DNA of 64,000 nucleotides from Sphingosinicella ginsenosidimutans (GTDB taxonomy: Bacteria; Pseudomonadota; Alphaproteobacteria; Sphingomonadales; Sphingomonadaceae): contig NZ_VOQQ01000001.1 in assembly GCF_007995055.1 (NCBI RefSeq), forward strand, positions 1,364,001 to 1,428,000, given 5' to 3'. The position numbers and the translations under genes were made by a program. Shown here in pieces: positions 42,820 to 63,001 of the stretch (the first letter of the stretch is position 1; each line of letters opens with the position of its first letter). A model generated the notes under the pieces. The model had not been told where the DNA came from. It ran no database searches and saw only the letters and a program-made list of their open reading frames with translations.

Positions 42820-43571
42820 CTGGATCCTTCCGAACTGAGGGTCTGGGTGAGGCGTGCGCGCCAATCGGAGGAATCGGGCGGCGTCGCACCGATGAGGTCG
42901 CACAGCCGGAGCGCAAGGCAGAGGTTGGACGAGATCACCGGCGGCCCGCCCGCTTCCCCGCCAACGAGCGCGAGCGAGGGCATGCCGGTCCCGCTCAGCA
43001 GGACCGCGTCGACCTCAGCGCGGCGCAGCGCGTCGACCGCGGGGCGCGCATCGGCGCTGCCAAGCGCATAGATACTGCGGGTGTCGCCGCTGCCGGTCTC
43101 GATCGCCCGCGACTCGACGATGTCGAACCCCGCATTGCGCCAGAACGCGACTGCGGCTTCCGAAAGCGCCGGCGGATATGGCGAGGCGAGCGCGATCCTC
43201 TGCGCGCCGAGGCGGCGGAGCTGCCAGCAGATCGCGGCAGTCGCGGTGACGACGGGGTAGCCGAAGCGCTGCTCCGCGCCGACGACGATCCGCGTGACCC
43301 GCTCGGGGTTCAGCAGGTAGGATGATCCGGTGCAGGCGAAGCCGAAGGCCTGCGGGCGCAGGCTGTCATATTGGGCGAGCGTATCTTCGAGGCGCTCCAG
43401 ATAGAGGCTCAGGCGTTCCAGCGGGTCCGGCGAGGACGCGGTGAGCCTGGCGACCGCCATCGCGACCGACGGCGGCATCAGGATGCGCATTTCCGCCTCG
43501 ACGGTCGGATTGGCCTGCGGCGCGCCGATGCCGACGAAGCCGGCGCGGCCATAATCCCGGCGAGCGCTCAT
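42816..43571 (-). CDS. Asp/Glu racemase superfamily protein, maleate-isomerase/arylmalonate-decarboxylase-like
   Basis: The 251-residue protein opens GFVGIGAPQANPTVEAEMRILMP and has the first catalytic cysteine Cys80 in GFACTGSSYLL. The second active-site position, expected as SCT or GCG, reads SGTGMPSL, with Gly194 where a cysteine should be. It could be a decarboxylase or non-racemising member of the superfamily rather than a maleate isomerase. It is in a four-base overlap with both neighbours. Confidence 0.8.
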   Translation of the reverse strand: MSARRDYGRAGFVGIGAPQANPTVEAEMRILMPPSVAMAVARLTASSPDPLERLSLYLERLEDTLAQYDSLRPQAFGFACTGSSYLLNPERVTRIVVGAEQRFGYPVVTATAAICWQLRRLGAQRIALASPYPPALSEAAVAFWRNAGFDIVESRAIETGSGDTRSIYALGSADARPAVDALRRAEVDAVLLSGTGMPSLALVGGEAGGPPVISSNLCLALRLCDLIGATPPDSSDWRARLTQTLSSEGSR

Positions 43572-44785: not shown

Positions 44786-44805
44786 TTTGTATTAGATATA
44801 AGACT
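44786..44805 (+). promoter_or_regulatory. operator-like element, site A
   Basis: TTTGTATTAGATATAAGACT lies between the divergent monooxygenase and methyltransferase genes. It keeps TTTG, the AT-rich centre and GAC of the element shared by seven sites in the right part of the window. Confidence 0.6.
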
Positions 44806-44884
44806 ATTCAGCCGGCGTAAATGCCTTGCCGAAAAGGATGCGGGGCACGCATAATCCCGGTGGCCGCAGCGGCGGGAGAGGAAC

Positions 44885-46093
44885 ATGGCTTCGACGAACG
44901 TCACCCAGGACCGGCGCAATTCCACCATCCCGGACATCGAGTCGCTCGCCCGCCCGACCCTTGAGGAGCGCGGCCGGCAGCGCTTCGCCAGCGCCCTGCG
45001 CCGCTTCGCGATCCAGGACATGCCCGAACGGCTCCGCGACGATTTCGAAACGCGGGTGAAGCCGGCAGCGGAGGCCAAGGGCGCCCGCTTCGATGATGCG
45101 CGGGCGATCGACGAGGCGATGGAGCGCCGGGCGTCCTACCGTTTCTACAGCACGCTCCGCTACAACGCGCAGGAGATGTGCTTCCTTTCGGTGCAGGATC
45201 CGGTCGAACGCGCGCTGCCCGAGATGATCGCGGTTGCGCGCGACGCGGCGGAGCGCAGCCCGGCCGGCGGCACGCTCCGGCTGAACCCCGATCTTGAAGT
45301 CCCGCGCTACGTGACGGCGCTGGACGTCCACCTGACGCCCGGCTGCTTCCATTCCGAATGGGTCGAGGACGATGTCGCGCAGGGCGCGGTGGTCAGCCTT
45401 GGCTCACGCGTGTTCACGGCGAGCATGAACCATCGCAGCTGGGGCGGCGTCGCGCGGGTGATCAGCCGCTGGGTGAAGCATGTCCGGCCGGATTTCCGGC
45501 CGCTCAGAATCCTTGATCTCGGCACCTCCTCGGGCAAGAACCTGCTTCCCTATGTCGAGGCCTTTCCGGGGGTTGAGGCGCATGGCGTCGATGTCGGCGC
45601 GCCGCTGCTGCGCTACGGCCATGCGCTTGCCGAGCATGAGGGCGTGCCGCTGCACTTCAGCCAGCAGAACGCCGAAGCGATGGATTTCCCGGACGCGCAT
45701 TTCGATCTGATCGTCTCGAGCTTCTTCTTCCACGAGATTCCGACGACGGCGACGCGCAACGTCCTGAAGGAATGCCGGCGCCTGCTGCGGCCGGGCGGAA
45801 TGATGGTCCACCAGGAACTGCCGGCGACCGGGCTTGTCGATGCCTGGGAGGATTATTTCTGGAACTGGGACACCGAGAACAATAACGAGCCCTTCTACAC
45901 CGCCTTTCGCGCGAAGGATCCGATCGCCTTGTGCGCCGAGGCCGGGTTCGACGCCGCCCGCAGCTTCGCCCAGATCCTGCCGGACGTGAACGCCTATCCC
46001 GATCGTCATGCCGAATTCGGCTGGGACGAGCCGGGCCGGCCGCGGCACGGCAAGGGCGGCTGGTACGTGTTTGGCAGCAGCCTGCCCGAATGA
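44885..46093 (+). CDS. class I SAM-dependent methyltransferase with long N-terminal domain, paralogue 1
   Basis: The 402-residue protein has about 195 residues of N-terminal sequence ahead of a SAM fold: motif I ILDLGTSSGKN, motif II GVDVGAP, and later FDLIVSSFFFHEI and RLLRPGGMMVHQEL. The N-terminal part shares with the protein at 58046 the marks SYRFYS...NAQEM, SVQDPVER and LDVHLTPG. This shared long N-domain is not one I recognise. It precedes the MFS carrier in one unit. The ATG is preceded by GGGAGAGG. Confidence 0.85.
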   Translation: MASTNVTQDRRNSTIPDIESLARPTLEERGRQRFASALRRFAIQDMPERLRDDFETRVKPAAEAKGARFDDARAIDEAMERRASYRFYSTLRYNAQEMCFLSVQDPVERALPEMIAVARDAAERSPAGGTLRLNPDLEVPRYVTALDVHLTPGCFHSEWVEDDVAQGAVVSLGSRVFTASMNHRSWGGVARVISRWVKHVRPDFRPLRILDLGTSSGKNLLPYVEAFPGVEAHGVDVGAPLLRYGHALAEHEGVPLHFSQQNAEAMDFPDAHFDLIVSSFFFHEIPTTATRNVLKECRRLLRPGGMMVHQELPATGLVDAWEDYFWNWDTENNNEPFYTAFRAKDPIALCAEAGFDAARSFAQILPDVNAYPDRHAEFGWDEPGRPRHGKGGWYVFGSSLPE

Positions 46094-46151
46094 GCCCGGC
46101 CGGCGCCGACCAAGATCATTGGCGCAGCGGCGCCTTCCCGGGAGGATCCAA

Positions 46152-47486
46152 GTGAGTTTGCAGACCAAGAGCGCGGTCTATCGCTGGTACGTCGTCTTCC
46201 TTCTCCTGCTCGTCTTCATCCTCTCCTATTTCGATCGCTACATCCTCTCGCTGCTGGTCGATCCGATCAAGGAGGTGATGCACCTCAGCGATTTCCAGAT
46301 CGGCCTGCTGCTCGGCCCCGCCTTCTCGCTGTTCAATGTCGCGGTGACCTTGCCGCTCGGTTGGTATGCCGATCGATCGAGCCGCAAATGGCTCCTGATT
46401 GCCGGCATCGTCATCTGGTGCACGATGACGGTCGCGAGCGGCTTCGTGATGAGCTTCGTGCCGCTGCTCGTCTTCCGCCTCGGCCTCGGTCTCGGCGAGG
46501 CGGTGGTGAGCCCCTGTTCGGTCTCGATGATCAGCGACTATTTCAGCCGCGAGGGGCGGGCGAGGGCGATCAGCGTCTACATGGCCGGACCCTATCTCGG
46601 CGCCGGCCTCGCCTTCCTGGTTGGCGGCCATCTCGTGGGCTGGCTCCACGAGATCGGGCCGAGGACGCTGTTTGGGCTCGGCCCGTTCCAGCCCTGGCAG
46701 GCGGCCTTCCTGCTGGTCGGCGCACCCGGCATTATCTTCGCGCTCCTGATGCTGACCGTTGTCGAGCCGCCGCGCACCGAGAGGATCACCACCTCCGCCG
46801 AGGAAGAGGCGCGGGTCAGCGCATTGCGCTACATGATGGCGCGGTGGCGCGGCTTCGGCGCGCTCACCCTGGGCGCCACCTGCAATTTCGCGATGAGTAC
46901 GCTCACCTTCTGGAACGTGCCCCTGTTCCAGCGCGTCTACCACTGGGACGTGGTTGCGATCGGCACGGTTACCGGCCTGTTCTACTTCACCGCCGGCCCG
47001 ATCGGGACGGCGCTCGCGCTCTGGGCCAGCAACGCGCTTGGGCGCAAGCATGGTGACGGGGCGATGCGCGTCCTGATCCTCGGCCTGTTCATCACGGTCC
47101 CGGCGAGCGCGCTTTACCCGGTGATGCCGACCGCGCAGCTATCGATCATCCTCATGTTCATCGCCTTCATCGGCAAGGCTGCGGCGACGGCGGGCGGGCC
47201 GGCGGCGCTCTCGCTGATCACGCCGGGTGAGCTGCGCACACGGACGGTCGCGATCTTCAACACGATCATCACACTGATCGGTCCGCTGCTCGGGCCGCCG
47301 CTGATCGGCGCCGCGACCGACTGGACGGGCAACCCCGCCTCGATCGGGATCGTGCTGAGCGGTTTTGTCCTCTTGATCGGCCTGCCGACGCTCATCCTCG
47401 TGTGCATCGGCCTCAAACATTATCGAGAGACCGCGGCCGAGCTGGCCGGGCGGCTCGATCGCAAGCCTGCGACGGCGGCGGCCTAG
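46152..47486 (+). CDS. MFS transporter
   Basis: The 444-residue protein has 12 hydrophobic segments. It has the MFS loop motif GWYADRSSRKWLL between helices 2 and 3 and a second-half element LGRKHGDG. The RRWYVVFLLLLVFILSYFDRYILSLLVDPI-type N-terminus resembles the ACS family (anion:cation symporters for organic acids and aromatic acids). It likely imports the locus's substrate or an intermediate across the inner membrane. The start is GTG 46152 with GGGAGGA upstream. Confidence 0.9.
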   Translation: MSLQTKSAVYRWYVVFLLLLVFILSYFDRYILSLLVDPIKEVMHLSDFQIGLLLGPAFSLFNVAVTLPLGWYADRSSRKWLLIAGIVIWCTMTVASGFVMSFVPLLVFRLGLGLGEAVVSPCSVSMISDYFSREGRARAISVYMAGPYLGAGLAFLVGGHLVGWLHEIGPRTLFGLGPFQPWQAAFLLVGAPGIIFALLMLTVVEPPRTERITTSAEEEARVSALRYMMARWRGFGALTLGATCNFAMSTLTFWNVPLFQRVYHWDVVAIGTVTGLFYFTAGPIGTALALWASNALGRKHGDGAMRVLILGLFITVPASALYPVMPTAQLSIILMFIAFIGKAAATAGGPAALSLITPGELRTRTVAIFNTIITLIGPLLGPPLIGAATDWTGNPASIGIVLSGFVLLIGLPTLILVCIGLKHYRETAAELAGRLDRKPATAAA

Positions 47487-47605
47487 GAGGCCGGCAGCTC
47501 CCGACGACGCCGGCGACGATCGCGGCCCACGCGCCGGATCCATCATCATGCGCCCCATCGCCCGAGCCGCTGAACATGCCGCTTGATTTCGCGCGGCTCA
47601 GCTGA

Positions 47606-47625
47606 TTTGATATAAAGATAGGACA
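47606..47625 (+). promoter_or_regulatory. operator-like element, site B
   Basis: TTTGATATAAAGATAGGACA lies 23 bases before the FAD dehydrogenase start in a 162-base gap that holds no other gene. It is an AT-rich island in a GC-rich context. Confidence 0.65.
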
Positions 47626-47648
47626 TTTCGTCGGACGAGGACGAGTCA

Positions 47649-49091
47649 TTGGCGGACGGATCGCGCGAGAGTTGGGATGTGGCGATCGTCGGCGCCGGAT
47701 CGGCCGGGCTTCCCTGCGCCATATTCGCGGCGAGGGCCGGAGCGCGCGTGCTGTTGCTGGATCATGCCGACCAGCCCGGCGGGTCGCTGTGGGTCGCCAC
47801 GGGGCAGATGAGCGCGGCCGGGACCCGGCTGCAGAAGGCGCGCGGGATCGAGGACACGCCCGACCTCCATTTCGAGGACGTGATGCGGATCAGCCGCGGC
47901 ACCGCCAATGCCGAGCTCGTGCGCCTTGCGGTCGATCATGCCGCTGCCACCTTCGACTGGCTGATGGACGAGGGTTTCGAGCCGCTGCCCGATCATCCGG
48001 TCACCGGCTTTGGCCATGAACCCTATCGTGTCGCCCGCTATTATTGGGGCGAGAAGGGGGCGCTCAGCATCAAGGAGGTGCTTGTCCCGATCGTCGAGCG
48101 GCTGGCGTCCGAGGGCAGGATCGACATGCGACTGGGGCATGAGGTCACCGAGCTGGTCCAGGACGAGGGCGGCGCGGTGACCGGCCTTCGGGCGCGCGGA
48201 CCCGATGGCGCGACACAGGAGTTCGCCGCCGGCGCGGTCGTGCTCGCCTCCGGCGGCTATGCCGGCGATCCGGCGCTGTTCGAACGGCTGAACGGCTATC
48301 CCCAATATAACGCCGCGCCCTACCCCTGGTGCCGGGGCGCGGCGCTGAAGCTGGGGGAGGCCGTGGGCGGCTTCGCGCGGGGCGCCGAAAACCTGTTCGT
48401 CAATTTCGGGACCCTGTTCGACACCGACGAATTCCCGGCCAAGGCGACCGGGCGGATCGAGCACTTCCCGGAACGGCGCCAGCCCTGGGAAATCTATGTG
48501 AACGCTGCCGGCGACCGCTTCGTTCGGGAAGATATCGACAGCGTCGATGCGCGCGAAATGGCGCTGTTTCACCAGCAGGACTATCGCTACTGGATCATCC
48601 TCGACAGCCGCATCCTTGCCGAAGCGCCGCCGATCGTCGTCGGATGGACGAAGGAGGAGGTCGCGGACGCCTTCGCGCGCGGCGGCCCGGCCTTCCTCAC
48701 CTCCGGCACGCTCGCGGATCTCGCCGCCAGGGCGGGCATCGATGCCGCCGGCTTGGAGCGAGCCGTCACCGGCTATAATTACGGCGTCGCGACCGGCGCC
48801 GACTTTTTCGGGCGGAGGCACCTGCCGCGGCCGATCGCGGAGCCGCCATTCCATGCGATCCGGATGCAGGCGAGCGCGATCTCCAGCACGGTCGGGCTCG
48901 CGGTCGATGGCGAGCTGCGCGTCGTGCGCCGCGACGGCAGCCCGATCCCGAATCTCTACGCGGCGGGCGAGGCGCTCGGGTCGAGCCAGACCATGGGCAA
49001 GGCGGCCTGCGGCGGCATGATGGTGACGCCGGCGATGACGTTCGGGCGGCTGCTCGGCGAACGGCTGGCCGCGAAGGGAGGCCGCAAGTGA
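47649..49091 (+). CDS. FAD-dependent dehydrogenase/reductase (fumarate reductase/KstD-like flavoprotein)
   Basis: The 480-residue protein opens DVAIVGAGSAGLPCAIFAARAGARVLLLDHADQPGGS, the FAD-binding motif, and ends with NLYAAGEALGSSQTMGKAACGGMMVTPAMTFGRLLGERLA, the C-terminal FAD/substrate region of the fumarate reductase/3-ketosteroid dehydrogenase group. The family carries out C-C double bond formation or reduction. No heme or membrane segment is seen, so it is soluble. The start is TTG 47649. Its stop overlaps the next GTG by four bases. Confidence 0.85.
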   Translation: MADGSRESWDVAIVGAGSAGLPCAIFAARAGARVLLLDHADQPGGSLWVATGQMSAAGTRLQKARGIEDTPDLHFEDVMRISRGTANAELVRLAVDHAAATFDWLMDEGFEPLPDHPVTGFGHEPYRVARYYWGEKGALSIKEVLVPIVERLASEGRIDMRLGHEVTELVQDEGGAVTGLRARGPDGATQEFAAGAVVLASGGYAGDPALFERLNGYPQYNAAPYPWCRGAALKLGEAVGGFARGAENLFVNFGTLFDTDEFPAKATGRIEHFPERRQPWEIYVNAAGDRFVREDIDSVDAREMALFHQQDYRYWIILDSRILAEAPPIVVGWTKEEVADAFARGGPAFLTSGTLADLAARAGIDAAGLERAVTGYNYGVATGADFFGRRHLPRPIAEPPFHAIRMQASAISSTVGLAVDGELRVVRRDGSPIPNLYAAGEALGSSQTMGKAACGGMMVTPAMTFGRLLGERLAAKGGRK

Positions 49092-49927
49092 CTCTGCCGA
49101 TCCTCACCGCCCTGCCGGGCGAGCGCCGCGGCTATGTCGATGGCCCCGACGGCCAGATCCACTATCGCAGCCACGGCGAAGGACCGCCGGTGCTGCTCGT
49201 CCATCAGGCGCCCTGGGCGTCGATCCAGTATCGCCACGCGCTGCCCCGGATGGCGGCGGCGGGCTTTCGCGCGATCGCGATCGACCTGCCGGGCCACGGC
49301 ATGTCGGACCCGCCGGCCCACCCGTCGATCGCGGCCTATGGCGAGAGCCTCGCCGCGCTCCTGCGGGGCCTCGGGCTCGGCGCCGCGGCGGTGATCGGCC
49401 ATCGCGGCGGCGCTCTGGCGGCGGCGAATCTCGCCGCGTCGCATCCCGAAATGGTTTCGGGGCTGGTGCTCGATAATGCGCCTTATCTGTCCGCTGAGGA
49501 GCGCGCCGCCCGAATCGGCCGCTTCCCGGACCGGCAGGATATTGCTCCAGATGGCAGTCATTTGGTGGAGCGATGGGCCTGGGTCCGGCGTGTCGGCGAC
49601 CCGGACTGGAGCGACGAGACGGTCCATATTTCCGTGCTCACCTATTTCGCGCACGGCCCCTGGAAGGAACATGGCCACGGCGCGATACCGCTGCACGATC
49701 CGGCGCCCGACATGGCGGCAGTCGCCGCTCCGACCTTGGTCATCGCGAGCCGCACCGATCCGCTGTTCGGATCCGGCGCACGCCTGCTAAATGTCAGACC
49801 TGATTGGGAATATTCGGAACTTCCGGGCGGCCCTGGAATGGTGCTCGATCGCCCGGACGAGTGGTGCGCGGTCGTGATTCCGTTCGTGGACCGGCTGTTC
49901 GCGGGCCTGCGGCCGGATGCCGGTTGA
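49088..49927 (+). CDS. alpha/beta hydrolase fold protein with Arg at the nucleophile position
   Basis: The 279-residue protein has the fold marks VLLVHQAPWASIQYRHALP, AIDLPGHGMSDPP and a C-terminal GPGMVLDRPDEW region. The nucleophile elbow reads GHRGG (residues 104-108), so Arg106 stands where Ser, Asp or Cys is expected. It resembles a group with HQTP-type oxyanion loops and GHHTG-type elbows. It may be a lyase or cofactor-free enzyme rather than a hydrolase, or an inactive fold. Overlaps the upstream flavoprotein gene. Confidence 0.78.
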   Translation: MTLPILTALPGERRGYVDGPDGQIHYRSHGEGPPVLLVHQAPWASIQYRHALPRMAAAGFRAIAIDLPGHGMSDPPAHPSIAAYGESLAALLRGLGLGAAAVIGHRGGALAAANLAASHPEMVSGLVLDNAPYLSAEERAARIGRFPDRQDIAPDGSHLVERWAWVRRVGDPDWSDETVHISVLTYFAHGPWKEHGHGAIPLHDPAPDMAAVAAPTLVIASRTDPLFGSGARLLNVRPDWEYSELPGGPGMVLDRPDEWCAVVIPFVDRLFAGLRPDAG

Positions 49928-50016
49928 GCCGACCCCCGCGCCGATCGAGCATGGACGGACCATGGTCGGCCCCGAGATTGAAAGGTCAATGCAAAAATCG
50001 GTGGACAGCCGCATTA

Positions 50017-50036
50017 TTTGATATAGAAATATGACA
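50017..50036 (+). promoter_or_regulatory. operator-like element, site C
   Basis: TTTGATATAGAAATATGACA, the best copy of the shared element, lies 82 bases before the TonB-dependent receptor start in a 191-base gap. Its halves TTTGATAT and ATATGACA form an imperfect palindrome around AGAA. Confidence 0.7.
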
Positions 50037-50118
50037 ATTATAACGGCAGGCGCCCGCATCCGGCCAAGGGATCGGGCGCAGTGTGGGCCGCGGCTGAGGG
50101 AGCGAAAGGGCAGCAATC

Positions 50119-52485
<2,367 letters not shown>

Positions 52486-52504
52486 GATATCATTCGAATG
52501 GGCA

Positions 52505-52532
52505 GGCGCGGGAGGCAGGGGCCTTCCGCGCC
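52505..52532 (+). other. intergenic hairpin after the TonB receptor gene
   Basis: GGCGCGGGAGGC and GCCTTCCGCGCC pair around AGGG, 19 bases after the receptor stop. There is no T-run, so it may stabilise or attenuate the message between receptor and enzyme genes instead of ending it. Confidence 0.45.
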
Positions 52533-52548
52533 GCGCTGAAGAGGTGTC

Positions 52549-52851
52549 ATGGCGGATGCAGGCAAAGGCGGCGTGAAGCTGCCGCGGGTGAGCAAGGGCA
52601 AGCGCCCGCGCTTCTTCGACGATCCCGCCATCGACCAGATGATGACCTTCATGCTCGAATTGATGAGCGAGGTCACGGCGCTGCGCGAGCGGACCGACAC
52701 GATCGAACGGCTGCTCGACGAGAGGGGTTTTGTGGCGCGCGCCGATATTGAAGCCTATCGGCCCGACGCGGCCGGCGAGGCGGAACGATCGGCCTGGGCA
52801 CAGGCGTTCATCCAGCGGGTCATGCGGTTCCACGAACCAGGCGCGTCGTGA
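52549..52851 (+). CDS. small helical protein, paralogue 1, unknown function
   Basis: The 100-residue protein has a basic N-terminus (KLPRVSKGKRPRFFDDPA), a helical hairpin-like region (MMTFMLELMSEVTALRERTDTIERLLDERG) and an acidic C-terminus. It resembles the protein at 59167 in the helical segment (A/S-N-D-RIDRLERL against RTDTIERLLDE). It overlaps the start of the flavoenzyme gene by four bases, which suggests a subunit, adaptor or chaperone. No known family. Confidence 0.65.
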   Translation: MADAGKGGVKLPRVSKGKRPRFFDDPAIDQMMTFMLELMSEVTALRERTDTIERLLDERGFVARADIEAYRPDAAGEAERSAWAQAFIQRVMRFHEPGAS

Positions 52852-54827: not shown

Positions 54828-54841
54828 CAGGAGAAACGCGC

Positions 54842-55693
54842 ATGTATCCCGATCTCGAAGGCAAGGTGGCGATCGTCACCGGTGCCGGTCGCCGCAAGGG
54901 CCTTGGCGAGGCGATCGCGCGCAAGCTCGCCGCGGACGGCGTCCGGCTGCTGATCCATGATCTTGGACGCACGCAGGGCGCTCTCGCGCCGGAGCACGGG
55001 ATCGGGGCGGTGGACGAGCTGGAAGCGGTCGCCGAGGATCTGCGCGCGATCCATCCAGACATCGCCACCTTCGCCGCGGACATGCGGGTCGAGGAGGAGG
55101 TGAAGGCGCTTGTCGCTCATGCGGTCGAGCGCTTCGGGCGGCTCGACATCCTCATCAACAATGCCGGCGTCGGCTATCTCTTCGGGCCGCTCGTCGATGC
55201 GACGCAGGAGATGTGGGACACCGTTCTCAACGTGAACCTGCGCGGCGCCTTCTTCGCGACCAAATATGCGGTGCGCCAGATGCTGACCCAGCCGGTCCAG
55301 GAAGGCTGGGGCCGGGGCCGCATCGTCTCGATCGGGAGCCGCGGCTCGAAATCGGGCTCCGCGCTGACCTCGTCCTACATCGCCTCCAAGCACGGCCTTG
55401 TCGGCCTCACCCGCTCGGCCGCGATCGAGCTCGGGCCGGAGCAGATCACGGTCAACGCCGTCTGCCCCAATCACGTCACGACCGGGCTCGGCGCGTGGCA
55501 GAACGAATATATGGCCAAGGCGCGCGGTCAGAGCGTCGAGGAGTATCTGGCGGCGATGCGGTCACGCATCCCCCTGGGCCGGACGGGCACGCCGGACGAC
55601 ACGGCCAGTGCCTGCGCCTTCCTCTGCTCGGGCCAGGCGCAATTCATCACCGGCGAGGCGATGAACGTCTCGGGCGGCGAGGAAATGCATTGA
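54842..55693 (+). CDS. SDR-family oxidoreductase
   Basis: The 283-residue protein has the classical SDR marks: TGAGRRKGLGEAIARKLA, NNAGVG, Ser in the SIGSRG strand, and Tyr179-x3-Lys183 in YIASK. A long insertion after strand 2 (HDLGRTQGALAPEHGIGAVDEL) is like the dehydrogenase part of multifunctional beta-oxidation enzymes. The start ATG follows AGGAG. It is the last gene of the receptor unit and converges with the GlcG-like gene. Confidence 0.9.
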   Translation: MYPDLEGKVAIVTGAGRRKGLGEAIARKLAADGVRLLIHDLGRTQGALAPEHGIGAVDELEAVAEDLRAIHPDIATFAADMRVEEEVKALVAHAVERFGRLDILINNAGVGYLFGPLVDATQEMWDTVLNVNLRGAFFATKYAVRQMLTQPVQEGWGRGRIVSIGSRGSKSGSALTSSYIASKHGLVGLTRSAAIELGPEQITVNAVCPNHVTTGLGAWQNEYMAKARGQSVEEYLAAMRSRIPLGRTGTPDDTASACAFLCSGQAQFITGEAMNVSGGEEMH

Positions 55694-55701
55694 GGCCACA
55701 A

Positions 55702-56109
55702 TCACGTGGTCTCGGCGAGCGCCGCCAGACCGGCCTCGCCGATCCGCTCGTCCTGGTCGGGCGTGCCGCCGGAAATGCCGATCGCACCGACGCACTGGCC
55801 ATCGACGACGATCGGCAGCCCGCCGGCCATCGGGAGATAGTCGGTCAGCCGCAGCAGCGCGGGCTCCGCCGCGATCCGGTCGGCCAGGCGGCGGCTCGGT
55901 GCGCGGATCAAGGCAGCGGTGCGCGCTTTCTGTTCCGCGACCTTCGGGGTCATCAATCCGGCGCCATCGAGGCGCAGCAGCGCGAGCGGGTGGCCGCTAT
56001 CGTCGGTCACGGCGATCGACATGGCGAGACCATCGGATCGGGCCGCGGCGGCGGCGGCATCGAGAATGGAACGGGCTTCGGCCTCGCCCAGCACGGCTTT
56101 GTGTCTCAT
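55702..56109 (-). CDS. GlcG/HbpS-family (DUF336) protein
   Basis: The 135-residue protein has the family layout of a single alpha/beta domain: LGEAEARSILDAAAAAARSDGLAMSIAVTDDSGHPLALLRLDGA, then KARTAALIRAPSRRLAD, PIVVDGQCVGAIGISGG and DERIGEAGLAAL. These proteins bind heme or small ligands or occur in degradation operons with no known reaction. It is divergent from the GntR regulator gene, with a partial operator between them. Confidence 0.9.
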   Translation of the reverse strand: MRHKAVLGEAEARSILDAAAAAARSDGLAMSIAVTDDSGHPLALLRLDGAGLMTPKVAEQKARTAALIRAPSRRLADRIAAEPALLRLTDYLPMAGGLPIVVDGQCVGAIGISGGTPDQDERIGEAGLAALAETT

Positions 56110-56169
56110 CGGAAATCCTTTGCGATCGGCGGATGGAAACGGTGAAAAAAAGGAGCGCGCCGGCGGTTC

Positions 56170-56189
56170 TTTGATATAGCCGCGCGAGC
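56170..56189 (+). promoter_or_regulatory. operator-like element, site D (left half only)
   Basis: TTTGATATAGCC keeps the left half of the shared element, while the right half is GC-rich and degenerate. It lies 18 bases before the GntR-family regulator start, so it could serve autoregulation. Confidence 0.45.
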
Positions 56190-56207
56190 CGAGAGGGGAG
56201 AAACAGG

Positions 56208-56990
56208 GTGCTCGTCGAAAAAGGCGAATCGGCGGTTGCGATCGACCGCATGCAGGCGGTGCCGCTTTATCATCAGATCTTCCTGCAGCTGCGCGAGGAG
56301 ATCACGAGCGGCGAGCGGACCTATGGCTCGCGTATGCCGACCGAGCAGGAATTGTCGGCCCAGTTCGGTGTGTCGCGGATCACCGCGCGCCGGGCGCTCG
56401 ATGAGCTCGCCGAGCATCATCTCGTGGAGCGCAAGCGCCGCGTGGGCACGCATGTCATCTTCCGCTCGCCGGTGAAGCCGTTGCAGGGCAACATCGCCCA
56501 GGCGCTCGAATCGCTGCTCAATTTCGGTCGCGCGACGCAGGTCAAGCTGCTCGAGGTCGATCGCGTGCCGGCGCGTGCGCCGATCGACGAGGCGCTCGGC
56601 CTCGCGGAGGGCACGACCGTGCTCCGCGTGGTCCGCGACCGTTGGCTGGACGGCCAGCCGCTGGCCCATTTCGTCAGCTACACCCCGATGGACATCGGCG
56701 CACGAATGACCCGCGCCAAGCTCAAGTCGACGCCGATGCTGACGCTCATCGCCGAGGCCGGGGTCACCATCGGTTCGGCGACGCAGACCATCTCCGCGAC
56801 GCTCGCCGACGCCGCTTTGTCGTCGAGCCTGCACGTCGACATCGGATCGCCGGTGCTCCGCGTCAGCCGCACGGTGCTCGACACCAGGGGGCGGCCCGTC
56901 CAGCACATTCTCGGCCAGTTCAGGCCGGACCGCTACCAGATCAGGCTCGATCTCAATTCCTCCTCCAACATCGGTCCGGAGCTCATCTGA
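56208..56990 (+). CDS. GntR-family (HutC/UTRA) transcriptional regulator
   Basis: The 260-residue protein has an N-terminal winged helix-turn-helix (about 15-85, VPLYHQIFLQLREEITSGERTYGSRMPTEQELSAQFGVSRITARRALDEL) and a C-terminal UTRA ligand-binding domain (about 95-245). It is the only DNA-binding regulator gene recognised in the right part of the window and is the natural candidate to bind the seven similar sites. HutC-type proteins usually repress and let go on binding an intermediate. Start is GTG 56208 after GGGGAG. Confidence 0.95.
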   Translation: MLVEKGESAVAIDRMQAVPLYHQIFLQLREEITSGERTYGSRMPTEQELSAQFGVSRITARRALDELAEHHLVERKRRVGTHVIFRSPVKPLQGNIAQALESLLNFGRATQVKLLEVDRVPARAPIDEALGLAEGTTVLRVVRDRWLDGQPLAHFVSYTPMDIGARMTRAKLKSTPMLTLIAEAGVTIGSATQTISATLADAALSSSLHVDIGSPVLRVSRTVLDTRGRPVQHILGQFRPDRYQIRLDLNSSSNIGPELI

Positions 56991-57003
56991 CCGCCCGCGT
57001 CAT

Positions 57004-57023
57004 TTTGATATAGAAATATAACA
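57004..57023 (+). promoter_or_regulatory. operator-like element, site E
   Basis: TTTGATATAGAAATATAACA, one base different from site C, lies 42 bases before the VOC protein start. Confidence 0.65.
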
Positions 57024-57065
57024 AATCGTTTGCTACGTCCAGCCATCGGCCTGAAAGGAACGCTG

Positions 57066-57998
57066 TTGGGCGACTGGACCACCTCCACCGATCCGCTGCT
57101 GCTCAGGATCGCCGCGACGACCGTCGCGACCCCGGATCTCGACGCGAGCGAAGCCGATTATGCGCGGTGGCTCGGCTACCGGACGATCGAGCGCGGCACC
57201 GTCGACGCGGCGCTTGCCGAAAGCTGGGGCACGCCGGCGGCGGCGGGCGAGCGGACCTGCGTCCTGGTGCCGGCCGGGGAGGACGATGTGTTCATGCGGC
57301 TGGTCGAGGCCCCTGCGGTGCCCGGATACCGGCCGCTGACGACCTTCGGCTGGAACGCCTTCGAGATCATCGTCGATGATGTCCACACGCTCGCGGCGCA
57401 GCTCGCGGAGTCGGGCTTTCGCCATCTCGGCGGCCCGCGCGCGCTGCAGTTCATGCCGTCGATCGTGGCCATGCAGGTGGCTGGGCGCGCCGGTGAATGC
57501 CTCTATTTCACGATGGAAAGCGGCGATCGCGCGACGTCGATCCTTCCGCCGCCGAGCGGCTTTGTCGGCCGCACCTTCATCGTCGTCGCCGCGGGCGAGG
57601 ATTTTCCGACGATGCTACGCTGGTATGTGGACCGCTTCGCGCTTCGCGAGCGCCCGGTTCGGCAGAGCAGGGTGGAGATCATCCAGCAGGCGCAGGGGCT
57701 GGGTCCGGACGAGACGATCGAGCTCAGCGCCATCGGAATGCGCGAGCGCGGCAACCTGATCGAGCTGGACGGCTACCCGACAGGCCCGAACAGGATCGCC
57801 GCGCCGCGCCCGCGCGCGCCGGGGCACCTGCCCCCCGGCAATGCAATGGTGAGCATCGAGATCGCCGATCTCGAACCGCATGCGGCGCTGGCGCTGACGC
57901 CGCCCTCGCGCCGCGCCGGCGCCCCCTATAACGGCCGTCGCGCCTTCACCCTGCGCGGCCCGGCAGGTGAGCTGATCGAGTTGATCGAGACGGAATAA
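57066..57998 (+). CDS. VOC-superfamily (glyoxalase/dioxygenase-like) protein, two-domain
   Basis: The 310-residue protein has two VOC-like halves: LRIAATTVATPDLDASEADYARWLGYRTIERG with NAFEIIVDDVHTLAAQLAESGFRHLGGP, and FVGRTFIVVAAGEDFPTMLRWYVDRFAL, ending AFTLRGPAGELIELIE. Metal ligands (His/Glu) are not all clear, so enzyme type is uncertain. TTG 57066 follows AAAGGAA; an upstream TTG at 57030 is less likely. It is single in its unit between two operator sites. Confidence 0.75.
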   Translation: MGDWTTSTDPLLLRIAATTVATPDLDASEADYARWLGYRTIERGTVDAALAESWGTPAAAGERTCVLVPAGEDDVFMRLVEAPAVPGYRPLTTFGWNAFEIIVDDVHTLAAQLAESGFRHLGGPRALQFMPSIVAMQVAGRAGECLYFTMESGDRATSILPPPSGFVGRTFIVVAAGEDFPTMLRWYVDRFALRERPVRQSRVEIIQQAQGLGPDETIELSAIGMRERGNLIELDGYPTGPNRIAAPRPRAPGHLPPGNAMVSIEIADLEPHAALALTPPSRRAGAPYNGRRAFTLRGPAGELIELIETE

Positions 57999-58017
57999 TT
58001 GTATTATAACTAGGACA
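57998..58017 (+). promoter_or_regulatory. operator-like element, site F
   Basis: ATTGTATTATAACTAGGACA, a weaker copy, overlaps the VOC gene stop by one base and lies 28 bases before the second methyltransferase start. Confidence 0.55.
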
Positions 58018-58045
58018 TAAAAACAGCGGCACAGGAGGCCTGGAC

Positions 58046-59167
58046 ATGAAGGTTCGCGATCTTGATCACGCGGTGTTGCCCCGCGCCACCGCCGAAGAGC
58101 GCAGCCGTCAGGGCGCCGTAGTCGCGCTGCGGCGCCTGCTCAATCGCCATGTCCGGCCGCGCAATGTCGAGGTGTTCGACAGCGAGGCGGCGCCGGCCTT
58201 CCGCGAATTGCACGGCCGCGCCCCGCAATCCCCCGCGGAGGTCCAGCAGGCCTTCCTGCTCTCGCCGAGCTATCGCCTGTGGAGCGCGACCAACCGCGCG
58301 GCCCAGGAAATGATCTGGGTTTCGGTCGGCGAGCCGGTCTATCGCGATCTCGATCGCATGACCGAGGCGACGCGCGAACTGGTCGAGGCGCCTGAAAAGC
58401 TCGGAAGCCTCAATCTCGATGCCGCCTACGATCCGTCGCCGGAGGTGGCGGGGGTCGACATCCATCTCCAGCCGGGCGGCTATGCCTTCGATCGCGGCGG
58501 CTATGACGTGGCTGCCGGCGCGCTCTACGAATGCGGCGGCAATGTCTTCTCCTTCGGGCAGGGAATCGGCCGCGGCGACAGCAAGGCGGGCGTCGTCGTG
58601 CGGTTGCTCGACGAGGCGTTCGGCGGCTTCCGGCCGAAGAAGATCCTCGACATCGGCTGCTCGGCGGGGGCTGCGTCGGCCGCTTATGCGGACCATTTCC
58701 CCGATGCCGAGGTTCACGCGATCGACATCGGCAGCGCGATGCTGCGCTATGCCCATGCCCGCGCGGAATCGCTCGGCGTCGCCGTGCATTTCCACCAGAT
58801 GGACGCCGCCGCCATGGCGTTCGACGACGAAAGCTTCGATCTCGTCGTGTCGCACAATCTCATGCATGAGATCGGGGAGGAGAAGCGCCGGGCGATGATC
58901 CGCGAATCACGCCGCGTCGCGAAGCCCGGGGGCGTCGTGATCCACCAGGACGTCGCCATCCGTAACCTGCCGACGATCGTCCACGAGGTCGAGCGCGACT
59001 GGGACACGCACTTCAACGGCGAGGTCCACTGGAACACCTATCAGACGGCCGACCTGATCGCGGACATGCGTGCGGCCGGCTTCGGCGAGACGATCGTCGA
59101 GCATGATCTCGCGGCGATCCACGGCGCCAATCGCTGGTATGCGATCAGCGGACGCAAGCCCGCCTGA
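58046..59167 (+). CDS. class I SAM-dependent methyltransferase with long N-terminal domain, paralogue 2
   Basis: The 373-residue protein has about 195 residues before the SAM fold, then ILDIGCSAGAASAAYADHFPDAEVHAIDIG, FDLVVSHNLMHEI and RRVAKPGGVVIHQDV. The N-terminal part shares SYRLWS...AAQEMIWVSVGEPV and VDIHLQPGGY with the protein at 44885, so both are one uncommon family. Its stop overlaps the start of a small helical gene as TGATG. The ATG follows AGGAGG. Confidence 0.87.
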   Translation: MKVRDLDHAVLPRATAEERSRQGAVVALRRLLNRHVRPRNVEVFDSEAAPAFRELHGRAPQSPAEVQQAFLLSPSYRLWSATNRAAQEMIWVSVGEPVYRDLDRMTEATRELVEAPEKLGSLNLDAAYDPSPEVAGVDIHLQPGGYAFDRGGYDVAAGALYECGGNVFSFGQGIGRGDSKAGVVVRLLDEAFGGFRPKKILDIGCSAGAASAAYADHFPDAEVHAIDIGSAMLRYAHARAESLGVAVHFHQMDAAAMAFDDESFDLVVSHNLMHEIGEEKRRAMIRESRRVAKPGGVVIHQDVAIRNLPTIVHEVERDWDTHFNGEVHWNTYQTADLIADMRAAGFGETIVEHDLAAIHGANRWYAISGRKPA

Positions 59168-59475
59168 TGACCAGCTCCGTCGAAGCGCTCTCGCAGCTTA
59201 TCGCGACCGCCCGCGGCAACCGGCCGCAAAGCCTCGCCTCGCGCGAGGCGGAGGAGGTGCTGAACGTCACGCTCGCGCTGCTGATCGAGCTCGCGGTCTC
59301 CAACGACCGGATCGACCGGCTCGAGCGACTGGTTGCCGAGCTCCGCGGCGAGCCGGTCGAGGCGCTGCGCGACCTGCGTTACGACGGGGAAGTCGCCGAG
59401 GAGCGCCAGGCGGCGACCGACGCCCTGCTGATGCGCGCGCTGCGGATCATGCTCGACCCGCGCGGGCAGGACTGA
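59167..59475 (+). CDS. small helical protein, paralogue 2, unknown function
   Basis: The 102-residue protein is mostly helical (LNVTLALLIELAVSNDRIDRLERLVAELRGEP) and resembles the protein at 52549 in this segment. It is translationally coupled to the methyltransferase by a TGATG overlap. Both small proteins lie next to large enzymes in the same regulon. No family is known to me. Confidence 0.65.
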   Translation: MTSSVEALSQLIATARGNRPQSLASREAEEVLNVTLALLIELAVSNDRIDRLERLVAELRGEPVEALRDLRYDGEVAEERQAATDALLMRALRIMLDPRGQD

Positions 59476-59481
59476 CCTTCG

Positions 59482-60408
59482 TCAGCCCTGCTGCGCCCGC
59501 CAGTTGTCGACGAGCTGGCCCGCGGTCGCGAACCAGGCCTCGGGACGGGCCGCGATTCGGCCCAGCAGCGCTTCGAATGCGTCCATGCGATAGGGCAGGC
59601 CGGTGATGTAGGGCGTGAGCGTCAGCGGCAGCACGCGCCCGCCATATTGGGTCGATTCCGCCGCCAGCCAGTCGAACGCGTCCTCCACCTGTCGGGCGAC
59701 GCTGTCCATCGATTGCTGCTGCACCGCGATCAGCTGGCGATCCGAAAGCTCGTGGTTGAACGGCAGGCTGACGATCGTGCCAGCGGACGTCGTCGCGACG
59801 TAAGGCAGGTCGTCATTCACCCAGTCGCACATATAGTCGAACCCAGCCTCGACCAGCAGGCGCGGGGTGTTCCAGCTCTGCGAGCGTGCGATCGACTGCC
59901 AGCCGCGCGGACGGCTTCCGATCGCGGCGGCGAGCGTGTCGCGCGCCTTCTCGATCAGCGCGCGCTCCTCTTCTTCGGGAAGGCCGGTCGCGATCGTACC
60001 GTTCATGTCGGTCGAATGGGCGATGATCTCGTGGCCGCCGGCGCGGATGTCGGCGATGATCGTGGGATAGCGCTCGGCGATCGCCGCATTGACCGCGACG
60101 GTGACGCCGACGCCCGCCTTTGCGAAGGCGTCGAGCAGCCGATAGAAGCCGACCCGCGTCCCATATTCGCGCGCTGTATAATGGCGGTAGTCGGGATAGG
60201 GCGTCTGCATGTGGCCCGGCGCCCGGAACGGCTTGTCCGACGGCACGATCGGAAACCATTCGAGGTTGACCAGCACGGCGACCGCGACGGCCTTGCCGTC
60301 CGGCCAGGCGACCGGCCTGCGCGTCGGCATCGGCGAGGCGGCATAGAGGTCATGGTCCATGCCCAGGCGGCGCCTGGGATATTCCAGATAGGCGGGATCG
60401 AGGCTCAT
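59482..60408 (-). CDS. NodB-fold polysaccharide deacetylase/allantoinase-like hydrolase
   Basis: The 308-residue protein has the NodB/PuuE pattern: VAVAVLVNLEWFP, RVGFYRLLDAFAKAGVGVTVAVNAAIAERYP, AGGHEIIAHSTDMNG with the His-x4-His pair, and GWQSIARSQSWNTPRLLVEAGFDYMCDW. There is no signal peptide, so it is cytoplasmic and more like PuuE allantoinase and cyclic amide hydrolases than chitin deacetylase. It overlaps the upstream gene by four bases. Confidence 0.85.
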   Translation of the reverse strand: MSLDPAYLEYPRRRLGMDHDLYAASPMPTRRPVAWPDGKAVAVAVLVNLEWFPIVPSDKPFRAPGHMQTPYPDYRHYTAREYGTRVGFYRLLDAFAKAGVGVTVAVNAAIAERYPTIIADIRAGGHEIIAHSTDMNGTIATGLPEEEERALIEKARDTLAAAIGSRPRGWQSIARSQSWNTPRLLVEAGFDYMCDWVNDDLPYVATTSAGTIVSLPFNHELSDRQLIAVQQQSMDSVARQVEDAFDWLAAESTQYGGRVLPLTLTPYITGLPYRMDAFEALLGRIAARPEAWFATAGQLVDNWRAQQG

Positions 60409-61331
60409 GCGTCGGCCTTTGCGTAACGGGAGGCGTCGGCGGCGACGGCGTCATAGCCGTTCGCCAGGAAATGATCGGCGATGTCGCCGGAGCGAGTGAT
60501 CCAGGCCCGGCCGTCTGCGGCGATGTGGCGGAGCACCTCCTCGAACGGGCCGATCCGGTGCGGCTGGCCGATCAGATAGGAATGGAGGGGAATGCACATG
60601 ACGGTGCCGTTGCTTTCCCCTTCCGCGGCGAGGCGGTCATATTGGCGGATCAGCGTTTCGGCATATTCGCGCGGGCTCATATTGTAGACGAAGAAGCCGT
60701 AATGATCGTTGACCTCGATGCTGTAGGGCATCGACACGAGCCGCCCGCTCTTCACATGGACCGGCGCCGGCTGATCGTCATGATAGAGATCGCAGGTATA
60801 GGTCATGCCATATTCGGCGATGAGATCGAGCGTGCGCGGCGTGTGGGTGAGGGCGGGGGCGAGCCAGCCCTTGATCGTCTGCCCGGTCGCCTCGCGGACG
60901 GTGCGGATCGAATCCTCGATGATCGCGCGCTCCTGCGCCTCGTCCATGCCGTAGCTGTAGCGGGTGTTATAGATGCCGTGGCTGAAGAACTCCCAGCCGC
61001 GGTCATTGGCGTCGGCGACGACTTCGGGATGATGCTGGCACAGCGCGACCGAGAGCGAGACCGAGCCCTTGAAGCCGTGCTTTTCCATCACCTCGGCCAT
61101 CCGCCAGTGGCCGACCCGGTTGGCATAGTCGCGATGGCCATAGCCGACCACGTCGGGATGCGGCCGCGGCCAGCTCTTGCGCTGCGGATTGGCCGGCGGA
61201 TCGATCTCGTAAAATTCGAGATTGGGTGACACCCAGACCGCGACCGCCTTGCCGTTCGGCCATTCGATCCGGGCGCGGTCGCGATAGGGCCGGAAATCGT
61301 AAAGGCCGGGATCGGCCGCGCCTTCGTTCAT
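60405..61331 (-). CDS. second NodB-fold hydrolase, allantoinase-like
   Basis: The 308-residue protein is a paralogue of its neighbour: KAVAVWVSPNLEFYEID, RVGHWRMAEVMEKHGFKGSVSLSVALCQHHPEV, GWEFFSHGIYNTRYSYGMD and GWLAPALTHTPRTLDLIAEYGMTYTCDLYHDDQP. The first His of the usual GHE motif is Trp here (GWE), so metal binding is doubtful; metal-free PuuE-like catalysis remains possible. The two may act as a pair or on successive substrates. Confidence 0.84.
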   Translation of the reverse strand: MNEGAADPGLYDFRPYRDRARIEWPNGKAVAVWVSPNLEFYEIDPPANPQRKSWPRPHPDVVGYGHRDYANRVGHWRMAEVMEKHGFKGSVSLSVALCQHHPEVVADANDRGWEFFSHGIYNTRYSYGMDEAQERAIIEDSIRTVREATGQTIKGWLAPALTHTPRTLDLIAEYGMTYTCDLYHDDQPAPVHVKSGRLVSMPYSIEVNDHYGFFVYNMSPREYAETLIRQYDRLAAEGESNGTVMCIPLHSYLIGQPHRIGPFEEVLRHIAADGRAWITRSGDIADHFLANGYDAVAADASRYAKADA

Positions 61332-62008
61332 TGCCGCGCCTCCAGCCAGTCGATCACCGACTGGACCGGCTCGACATCGGCATATTTGAGCTGGAGATCG
61401 GTGAGGTTCGCGAAATGATAGCTTTCATGCTTGTCGGCGCAGGTCTCGATCGGGACGATCGTGCGGTAGCCGTGGCTCAGCGCCTCGACCGCGGTCGCGC
61501 GCACGCAGCCGGAGGTCGATCCGCCGGTCACCACCACCGTGTCGACCTTGTGCCAGACGAGATAGCTTGCCAGCGGCGTCTCGAAGAAGGCCGAGGGCAT
61601 TCGCTTGGTGAAGGTGAGGTCGCCCTCCTGGATGTCGCAACGCGGATCGTAGGCGTGGCGCTCGCTGTCATATTTGATGTTCTGGAGCGAATCGGGCGTG
61701 TCGGTCCGCGTGCCCCAGACGCCTGCGTCCGCGGCGTCCTCCTTGTAGGCGACGCGCGACCAGATCACCGGCATCCCCGCAGCGCGCGCGAGGCGCGAGA
61801 TGATGTTGATATATTCGATCTGCCGCGGGTCGGTCTCATAGGCGGTCTTGAACAGGTCGAGCCGCGTATAGGCCTGCTGAAGGTCGACATTGACGATCGC
61901 GAGCTTCTCGCCGAACCCGAACTTGTTGCGGGCCGGATTGGCCATCACCGCCTCGAACAGCTCGCGCGCGGTCTTGTCTTCGCGGATCATCTTGGTGCCG
62001 AGAGTCAT
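61328..62008 (-). CDS. isochorismatase-family cysteine hydrolase, N-carbamoylsarcosine amidase-like
   Basis: The 226-residue protein has the catalytic triad Asp42 (NVDLQQAYT), Lys135 (FTKRMPSAFF) and Cys168 (GGSTSGCVRATAVEAL). The TSGCVRAT stretch is close to N-carbamoylsarcosine amidohydrolase. The family hydrolyses amide or carbamoyl C-N bonds. Its ATG overlaps the stop of the HMG-CoA-lyase-like gene (TGATG), and its stop overlaps the next start. Confidence 0.9.
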   Translation of the reverse strand: MTLGTKMIREDKTARELFEAVMANPARNKFGFGEKLAIVNVDLQQAYTRLDLFKTAYETDPRQIEYINIISRLARAAGMPVIWSRVAYKEDAADAGVWGTRTDTPDSLQNIKYDSERHAYDPRCDIQEGDLTFTKRMPSAFFETPLASYLVWHKVDTVVVTGGSTSGCVRATAVEALSHGYRTIVPIETCADKHESYHFANLTDLQLKYADVEPVQSVIDWLEARQ

Positions 62009-62961
62009 CAAATGGTCTCCAGTGGGATCGAAGCCGGCTCCGGGACGAATCCAAGCGGCAGGCCGGCATCCGGGGTGAAGCCGTAGAGCGGTTCGCCGGG
62101 CAGCGCGTCCGCGAGAATGCGACGCACGCCGAGCAATTCTTCGAGATCGATGCCGGTGCGAAGCCCCATCGCCTGCAGCATGAAGACGAGATCCTCGGTG
62201 ACGACATTGCCGCTGGCGCCGGGCGCGAAGGGGCAACCTCCGATGCCGCCGAGCGAACTGTCGATCGTCTCGATGTCCATCTCCAGCGCCGCGAGCACGT
62301 TGGCGAGGCCGAGGCCGCGCGTATTGTGCAGATGGATGCCGGTCAGCGCGTTGGCGCCGACGACCCCGCGCACTTCCCTGATCATCTCCTTGACGGCGCG
62401 GGGATCGGCATAGCCGGTCGTATCCGACAGGCCGACCTCGTCGCAGCCGGCGGCCATCAGCTGCTCGGCGAGTCTCAGGATCTGGCGCAGCGGGATCGCG
62501 CCTTCGATCGTGCAGCCGAAAACGGTCGAGAGGCTGCCCTCGAAATGCGGACGCTTCGCCCTTGGCTGCGCCGCGATCAGGGTGGCGATCGCCGCCGCTT
62601 CGGCAAGCACCTGGCCATGGCTGCGGCGCAGGTTCGCCATGCTGTGCGATTCGGAGACCGAGAGGGGCAGGGTGATCTTGTCCGCGCCCGCCTCGATCGC
62701 CGCCTCGGCGCCGCGCAGGTTGGGCACCAGCACCGCGACCGTCAGGCCGGGAATGGTCTTGGCGAAGGCGACGATTTCGGCGGTGTCGGCCAGCTGCGGC
62801 AGCAGCGTCGCGGGGACGAAGCTGCCGACTTCGATCTCGCGAACGCCGGCGGCGGCCTCGGCGGCGATCCACGCCTTTTTCGCCTCCGTCGGCATGACCG
62901 CGGAGATGCTCTGGAGACCGTCGCGCGGGCCCACTTCGCTGATCAGAATATCGGTCCGCAT
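62008..62961 (-). CDS. hydroxymethylglutaryl-CoA lyase-like TIM-barrel enzyme
   Basis: The 317-residue protein has the DRE-TIM motifs of HMG-CoA lyases: EVGPRDGLQ near the start, EVGSFV, GCTIEG, GCDEVGLSDTTGYADP, HLHNTRGLGLANVLAALE and GGIGGCPFAPGASGNVVTEDL with the C-terminal flexible cysteine loop. Members cleave HMG-CoA or related 3-hydroxy-3-methyl-acyl-CoAs such as citramalyl-CoA. First gene of a four-gene minus-strand unit under site G. The ATG follows AGAGG. Confidence 0.92.
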   Translation of the reverse strand: MRTDILISEVGPRDGLQSISAVMPTEAKKAWIAAEAAAGVREIEVGSFVPATLLPQLADTAEIVAFAKTIPGLTVAVLVPNLRGAEAAIEAGADKITLPLSVSESHSMANLRRSHGQVLAEAAAIATLIAAQPRAKRPHFEGSLSTVFGCTIEGAIPLRQILRLAEQLMAAGCDEVGLSDTTGYADPRAVKEMIREVRGVVGANALTGIHLHNTRGLGLANVLAALEMDIETIDSSLGGIGGCPFAPGASGNVVTEDLVFMLQAMGLRTGIDLEELLGVRRILADALPGEPLYGFTPDAGLPLGFVPEPASIPLETI

Positions 62962-62981
62962 CAAACCTCTGCTTGCTTTAT

Positions 62982-63001
62982 TGTCATATATCTATATCAA
63001 A
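62982..63001 (-). promoter_or_regulatory. operator-like element, site G
   Basis: Read on the minus strand, TTTGATATAGATATATGACA matches the best copy at all but one base. It lies 20 bases before the HMG-CoA-lyase-like start and 50 bases before the divergent CoA-transferase start. Confidence 0.68.

Follow-up and report, generated by a model that had tools for sequence, protein, structure and literature searches.

The window analysed here is a stretch of 64,000 nucleotides from Sphingosinicella ginsenosidimutans (contig NZ_VOQQ01000001.1, positions 1,364,001 to 1,428,000). Its right-hand part carries a gene for a GntR/HutC-type regulator (gntR, at 56208) among genes for enzymes and transporters, together with six copies of an AT-rich 22-bp dyad (Table 1). 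These sites stand at the heads of the units mt1-mfs, frd-abh, tbdr-100-amino-acid protein-oye-sdr, voc, mt2-102-amino-acid protein and hmgl-isoch-pda2-pda1; the site at 44786 also fronts mono-amdase-aldh, and the site at 62982 also fronts coat followed by the LeuC-like and LeuD-like genes. From sequence comparison, we conclude that the six sites are very probably operators of the regulator encoded at 56208. A preliminary description of the window had proposed a single regulon under this protein, and genome comparison, co-occurrence and the placement of sites at operon heads support that proposal. Its estimate of about 18 genes was too low because two divergent operons, at 44786 and 62982, had been missed. 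As grouped by spacing, the predicted regulon comprises eight units, with gntR and about 21 other genes.

Table 1. Putative operators and genes of the cluster, numbered from the first letter of the window.
Feature	Position	Strand	Gap to gene start	Remarks
Putative operator 1 (variant)	44786..44807	+	79 bp (44885); 24 bp (44761)	Between divergent mono (start 44761) and mt1 (start 44885); near-identical counterpart in related genome G008
Putative operator 2	47606..47627	+	23 bp (47649)	Upstream of frd
Putative operator 3	50017..50038	+	82 bp (50119)	Upstream of TonB receptor gene; TGGACA at -14
Left half site TTTGATATAG	56170..56179	+		gntR promoter; full-length score -9.1 bits
Putative operator 4	57004..57025	+	6 or 51 bp, by choice of start codon (gene listed at 57030)	Upstream of voc; CTGACC at -16
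Putative operator 5 (most divergent variant)	57998..58019	+	28 bp (58046)	Upstream of mt2; TTGATC at -16
Putative operator 6	62980..63001 (62982 in the preliminary description)	-	17 bp (62964); 50 bp (63052)	Between divergent hmgl (start 62964) and coat (start 63052); TCGACA at -16
mono-amdase-aldh unit	41344..44761	-		Operon grouping judged from spacing
mono	43568-44761	-		FAD monooxygenase
amdase	42816-43571	-		EutA/arylmalonate-decarboxylase-like
aldh	41344-42903	-		Aldehyde dehydrogenase
mt1, mfs	44885..47486	+		S-adenosylmethionine (SAM) methyltransferase; MFS transporter
frd, abh	47649..49927	+		FAD_binding_2 flavoprotein; alpha/beta hydrolase
tbdr, 100-amino-acid protein, oye, sdr	50119..55693	+		TonB-dependent receptor; OYE-type flavin reductase; SDR
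gntR	56208..56990	+		GntR/HutC-type regulator (GntR winged helix-turn-helix plus UTRA)
voc	57030..57998	+		Predicted two-module VOC fold; no Pfam match
mt2, 102-amino-acid protein	58046..59475	+		SAM methyltransferase
hmgl-isoch-pda2-pda1 unit	59482..62964	-		
hmgl	62008-62964	-		
isoch	61328-62035	-		
pda2	60405-61331	-		
pda1	59482-60408	-		
coat	63052..64000	+		CaiB-type CoA-transferase; ends at 64191, beyond the window
LeuC-like gene	64188-65585			After coat, beyond the window end
LeuD-like gene	65585-66226			After the LeuC-like gene, beyond the window end

All site positions given in the preliminary description were correct, including the left half alone at 56170. It had called all seven near-identical, which holds for four of them; the sites at 44786 and 57998 are clear variants. 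Relative to TTTGATATAGAAATATGACA, the site at 50017 has no mismatch, those at 57004 and 62982 (minus strand) have one each and that at 47606 has three, and the weaker sequences at 44786, 57998 and 56170 have 6, 7 and 8, respectively. At up to three mismatches the window contains four matches, compared with 0.00 expected from window shuffles. Leave-one-out matrix scores of the six sites ranged from 19.3 to 34.9 bits, and the best non-overlapping place elsewhere in the window scored 12.3. The left 44 kb, where no copy had been seen by eye, contains no site by the matrix either (best score 0.1 bits). The organism's own genome (3.04 Mb) was searched by pattern scans only. The consensus with up to three mismatches returned only four of the six sites, a degenerate pattern with up to two mismatches gave two extra places outside the window (16.5 and 4.9 bits), and a dyad-core pattern gave one (1.9 bits). 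Combined, these scans yielded the six window places and three others, all weak; frequent matches at unrelated genes were thus not seen in this genome.

The 22-bp dyad is centred at 11.5, because at five of the six sites the matrix also has a reverse-strand match, shifted by two bases. Complementarity around this centre is 0.56 for the six sites and 0.61 for a set of 131 distinct sites that score at least 24 bits and come from 80 named loci. The imperfect palindrome described earlier is therefore present, but in the wrong register: around its centre of 10.5, complementarity is lower (0.47 and 0.50) and we rejected that placement. Among the 131 sites, complementarity is 88-98% at the position pairs 3-20, 4-19, 8-15 and 9-14, G4 and T8 never vary, and information lies mostly between positions 0 and 23. 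The family form of the putative operator is wTTGnTATA-N4-TATnnCAAw. Some of the most distant loci carry near-perfect palindromes, for example AATGATATAATGATATATCATT in L182. Of the 34 sites used to train the 22-bp matrix, some lie inside the 80 loci scanned.

Conservation of the sites was studied in G008 and eight further clusters with a matrix built from the six window sites only. G008 has a site at all six corresponding places, and in the other eight, whose GntR proteins are 65-79% identical, hmgl, voc, tbdr, frd and mt2 are again preceded by sites. Not every unit has its site in every genome: in G423, G442 and G379 both frd and mt2 lack one, and G423 and G442 have only a weak mono/mt1 site. 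Across 32 hmgl promoters, pairwise identity was 0.76 within the site compared with 0.37 in the 25 bp upstream.

In the 80 named loci, some of which contain training sites, 172 sites scored above 20 bits, compared with 4 for the reversed matrix. Counting a site for a gene when it reached 20 bits and lay within 250 bp of the gene start, we found sites before hmgl in 32 of 34 cases, coat in 30/32, voc in 15/17, tbdr in 11/13, frd in 9/12 and mt2 in 11/17. Both mono genes and the single mt1 gene had one, as did 28 of 69 gntR, 12 of 33 leuC and 3 of 41 isoch genes. No site preceded the internal genes hbps (0/15), mfs (0/6), oye (0/17), sdr (0/22) or pda1 (0/38). The sites mark operon heads and not internal genes. 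Their orientation is kept before hmgl (32/32), voc (15/15), frd (9/9) and tbdr (10/11), and is less constant before mt2 (7/11) and gntR (18/28).

The preliminary description had the TTTG side always pointing away from the gene. This is generally so; at 44786 and 62982 it is true for only one gene, because both sites lie between divergent genes. For hmgl, 69% of 29 promoters have a TTGACA-like hexamer (at least 4 of 6 bases, 14-17 bp before the site); for tbdr the share is 91% of 11 and for voc 57% of 14, compared with 0-27% in control windows for the three. Four of the six window sites have such a hexamer, and those at 44786 and 47606 do not. This placement would put the -10 region inside the operator and would thus explain the preferred orientation. 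Repression by occlusion would be the natural reading: a GntR dimer would bind the 22-bp dyad at the -10 region and keep RNA polymerase off the promoter, until a small catabolic intermediate in the UTRA domain released it from the DNA. One signal would then switch on uptake, through the TonB receptor and the MFS transporter, along with all eight units. We infer binding, direction of control, effector and operon grouping.

The link between the sites and gntR was assessed by co-occurrence. In a family survey of 397 genomes (gntR at E of at most 1e-40; motif as the consensus with up to three mismatches), gntR was found in 22, the motif in 31 and both in 12 (p = 2e-9), so that 12 of 22 genomes with gntR have the motif compared with 19 of 375 without. 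The gene pda2 was found in 72 of the 397 genomes, 21 with gntR and 51 without. From these 51 we took 20 gntR-less enzyme regions, which contained no site above 20 bits. By comparison, in 11 regions drawn from nine gntR genomes that lay outside the training set, 25 sites were found, spread over 10 of the regions; some of the 11 had already figured among the 80 named loci. The difference (10/11 compared with 0/20) gives p = 2.5e-7 if regions are taken as independent. In G597, G429 and G356 the enzyme operon and its site lie on a different contig from gntR.

Sites also lie upstream of gntR itself in distant relatives. For 62 of the 80 loci, leaving out 17 close clusters and one with short upstream sequence, a site of at least 16 bits was found within 400 bp upstream of gntR in 41, compared with 26 of 1111 random windows from the same loci; the reversed matrix gave 5 of 62. 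Most of the distant gntR genes (43-47% identity) are immediately preceded by the dyad. The predicted switch and its putative repressor travel together through many related bacteria, and the regulon is, by this comparison, well supported as real. With queries taken from 6 of 15 regions, gntR alone among the gene families turned up in every one of the 15; we do not count this as proof, since gntR or site matches had served to choose the regions.

The 20 gntR-less regions (L209-L228) keep the same enzymes, mostly reordered and joined by a further aldehyde dehydrogenase, an alpha/beta hydrolase and a conserved protein about 160 amino acids long. A regulator was sought in 8 open reading frames (ORFs) of two of the gntR-less clusters and none was recognised; these ORFs gave aldehyde dehydrogenase and alpha/beta hydrolase matches, an aconitase C-terminal domain and nothing else. 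Separately, L114:8033 (G590) and L116:7961 (G317) carry TATGTTATAGAAATATAACATG, a near-perfect operator-like palindrome, and no gntR relative was found in either genome.

The 56208 protein combines an N-terminal GntR winged helix-turn-helix (PF00392, 70.4 bits; cut-off 27) with a C-terminal UTRA effector domain (PF07702, 109.1 bits; cut-off 23.8). Its sequence relatives in the PDB are YvoA and DasR. It reaches no curated equivalog cut-off, the best being PhnF (110.8 of 156.8) and HutC (108.5 of 220). In line with the preliminary description, it is the only regulator recognised among the units; no other was recognised in the cluster or among ten left-flank ORFs scanned.

Several observations weigh against the 56208 protein as the regulator acting at these sites. 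The element does not have the HutC form GT-N4-AC, as G4 and C19 are 14 nt apart in the 131 sites; according to PMC4494728, most HutC sites are GT-N4-AC and exceptions exist. By its domains the protein is nonetheless a HutC-subfamily member, and the putative operator is a variant. Its own promoter has only the half site at 56170, and none was seen in eight close clusters. The autoregulation suggested earlier would act through this half site, which recurs as TTTGATATAGCCGCTGAACA at the same place in G008; sites before gntR are otherwise those of the distant loci. The -35-like signal is displaced for frd (peak at -22, 78% of 9) and weak for mt2 (33% of 9). Ten of the 22 gntR genomes lack a consensus match at up to three mismatches; matrix scans of the regions of seven of these found sites in most. 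In G440, gntR is present while pda2 and a site are both missing. Finally, hmgl, coat, leuC and leuD also lie inside 17 of the 20 gntR-less stretches, mostly reordered. Gene order differs in 15 of the 20, hmgl/coat/leuCD fall outside the stretch in three, and the divergent hmgl/coat pair is kept only in L214 and L218. Promoters in these regions are therefore mostly not equivalent to those compared with them.

Some of these points would fit another regulator, encoded elsewhere and binding the sites, with gntR only a passenger of the cluster: the half site at gntR and an operator atypical for HutC, to which a LysR gene about 10 kb to the right (L005:11932-12843) can be added. We consider this improbable, given that the sites follow gntR across genomes and contigs, are absent from the 20 gntR-less regions and mostly accompany distant gntR genes, with no other regulator recognised nearby. 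If the element were instead a promoter element of a special sigma factor, its constant orientation toward hmgl, voc and frd and its AT-rich core would be explained, and a sigma-factor-like gene does lie to the right (L005:11145-11717). This is very improbable: the element has a dyad symmetry that is near-perfect in distant genomes, either orientation is found before mt2 and gntR, and its presence tracks gntR, while the TTGACA-like hexamer is of the ordinary sigma-70 kind at a varying distance. That the sites are Pho boxes read by PhoB deserves almost no credence. Six of 19 gntR-less genomes with the motif carry TTTGTTACA-type matches scoring 22.6-26.1 bits, which we take to be Pho boxes from their familiar consensus and neighbouring genes. 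Two checked matches of TTTGTTACAGAAATATGACA type, at L118:7289 (G628) and L119:7538 (G436), have a phosphate ABC permease and a Porin_O_P gene in their neighbourhood; such sequences are a trap for matrix scans with this operator. Pho-box identity was rejected since all 131 sites near gntR that score at least 24 bits have T at position 8 and the Pho-like ones C, the putative operator is an inverted repeat and the regulon contains no phosphate genes. An operator of the 56208 protein thus remains the preferred reading.

Several other genes of the cluster and its flank were noted. The two proteins of about 100 amino acids (52549-52851 and 59167-59475), each inside a regulon unit, have no Pfam or NCBIfam match; they are kept in related clusters and their C-terminal parts are similar by eye. 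The voc product (57030-57998) was modelled with a predicted local distance difference test (pLDDT) score of 92 as two VOC modules of the glyoxalase/dioxygenase superfamily, nothing more specific being indicated; its best solved match is maize glyoxalase I (TM 0.62-0.68). Directly past the regulon, on the minus strand of L005:4769-11717 (66769-73717 in window numbering), four ORFs encode an oligopeptidase-like protein (by eye, no Pfam match), a TonB receptor, a FecR-like protein (by eye) and a sigma-factor-like protein.

The regulon probably serves uptake and breakdown of a compound, which probably contains nitrogen. The pda1 and pda2 products fall far below the PuuE allantoinase model TIGR03212 (120.2 and 115.5; cut-off 424.6). 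The curated RutB cut-off is likewise missed by far. Among solved structures pda2 is closer to PuuE allantoinase (3cl6) than to HpPgdA (3qbu), and names among its best 120 of 3142 protein matches include 'polysaccharide deacetylase' and 'allantoinase'. The closest solved relative of isoch is N-carbamoylsarcosine amidohydrolase. The hmgl product passes HMG-CoA lyase subfamily NF004283 (278.6; cut-off 246), which gives its class and not its substrate. The same limit applies to the LeuC-like protein, which passes NF009116 of the isopropylmalate dehydratase family (685; cut-off 531) and just misses leuC TIGR00170 (558.8; cut-off 560.25). The LeuD-like protein scores as a small subunit (247.3; cut-off 167), and the best models for coat include succinate-glutarate and succinyl-CoA:mesaconate CoA-transferases.

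The enzymes may carry out opening of an imide or similar ring, amide hydrolysis, and then hydration, CoA transfer and cleavage; we regard this task as plausible, at somewhat less than an even chance. The PuuE-like pda1 and pda2 would open the ring to a half-amide, and the isochorismatase-fold isoch would hydrolyse the resulting amide to a substituted maleate. LeuCD would hydrate this to a malate, CoA transfer would give a malyl-CoA type ester, and the HMG-CoA-lyase-like hmgl would cleave it to pyruvate and an acyl-CoA. We infer this pathway since such a route would use the whole enzyme set. The substrate of the same regulon could instead be a ring of the hydantoin or allantoin type and not a maleimide-type imide; the PuuE-like proteins would open it and isoch would remove a carbamoyl group. 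This is possible but on the unlikely side. It would suit the closest solved relatives, PuuE allantoinase and N-carbamoylsarcosine amidohydrolase, and hydantoinase/caprolactamase-like genes occur in a distant cluster of this regulator family. It is disfavoured by the usual partners LeuCD, CoA-transferase and HMGL, which suit a substituted maleate or malate, and by the low PuuE and RutB scores.

Within the imide reading, a more specific and rather unlikely proposal is a widespread alphaproteobacterial regulon for substituted maleimides or five-ring imides, such as maleimide and hematinic-acid fragments of chlorophyll and heme, whose modules vary under the same switch. After uptake, two-step hydrolysis would give an alkylated maleate, hydration an alkylated malate, and CoA-dependent cleavage would follow. 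By chemical reasoning, and not as a result, hematinic acid would give pyruvate and glutaryl-CoA. The modules would include a TonB receptor and flavoenzymes in sphingomonads; those of Roseibium would comprise an ABC transporter, a PrpB-type lyase and hydantoinase-like proteins. In Roseibium aggregatum SY-2-12 (L188:10726-20696), a related regulator lies beside an ABC transporter and LeuC-like, PrpB-like and hydantoinase/caprolactamase-like proteins, a different toolkit with possibly a similar task. L167 resembles L188: there, distant regulator relatives lie with ABC transporters and LeuC-like, PrpB-/PrpD-like and ring-opening hydrolase-like genes.

In the open-licence PMC literature we found no description of such a cluster or regulon, whether by enzyme set, imidases, maleimide or hematinic-acid catabolism, or regulator. 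The comparison pairs a regulator with its putative operator across many genomes and ties about 21 genes of no known joint purpose into one predicted unit. It suggests testable reactions for enzymes named only 'polysaccharide deacetylase', 'isochorismatase' or 'HMG-CoA lyase', and in the putative operator it would offer a well-sampled case outside the geometry usual for HutC sites. Should the imide reading be right, the regulon would give a genetic handle on how bacteria complete the breakdown of pigment and heterocycle fragments.

Among known systems, HutC, NagR/YvoA, DasR and PhnF share with the 56208 protein the GntR winged helix and UTRA domain. The dre-sites of NagR, as reported in PMC4333415, are also dyads of imperfect symmetry. 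The 56208 protein differs from HutC, NagR, DasR and PhnF in falling below equivalog cut-offs and in its wide putative operator, compared with the GT-N4-AC given for most HutC sites in PMC4494728. The same paper lists SdhR, FarR and NagQ as HutC-type regulators with unusual sites, of which the SdhR site is likewise long, AT-rich and palindromic. Their spacing and sequence differ by eye from those seen here, and they regulate other genes. The proposed front end of the pathway resembles the imidase of Pseudomonas putida YZ-26 and HxnM/HxnN of Aspergillus nidulans, in which, according to PMC9304392, imide opening is followed by amide hydrolysis. That paper relates cyclic imide hydrolases to PuuE via HpPgdA, whereas pda2 is nearer PuuE itself. 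HxnN is FAAH-like, whereas the amidase here has another fold and would be followed by LeuCD, a CoA-transferase and a lyase. Itaconate/mesaconate C5-dicarboxylate degradation likewise uses a CaiB-type CoA-transferase and then a lyase; the route proposed here would differ from it in its LeuCD-like hydratase, its HMGL-type lyase and its hydrolytic, nitrogen-removing front end.

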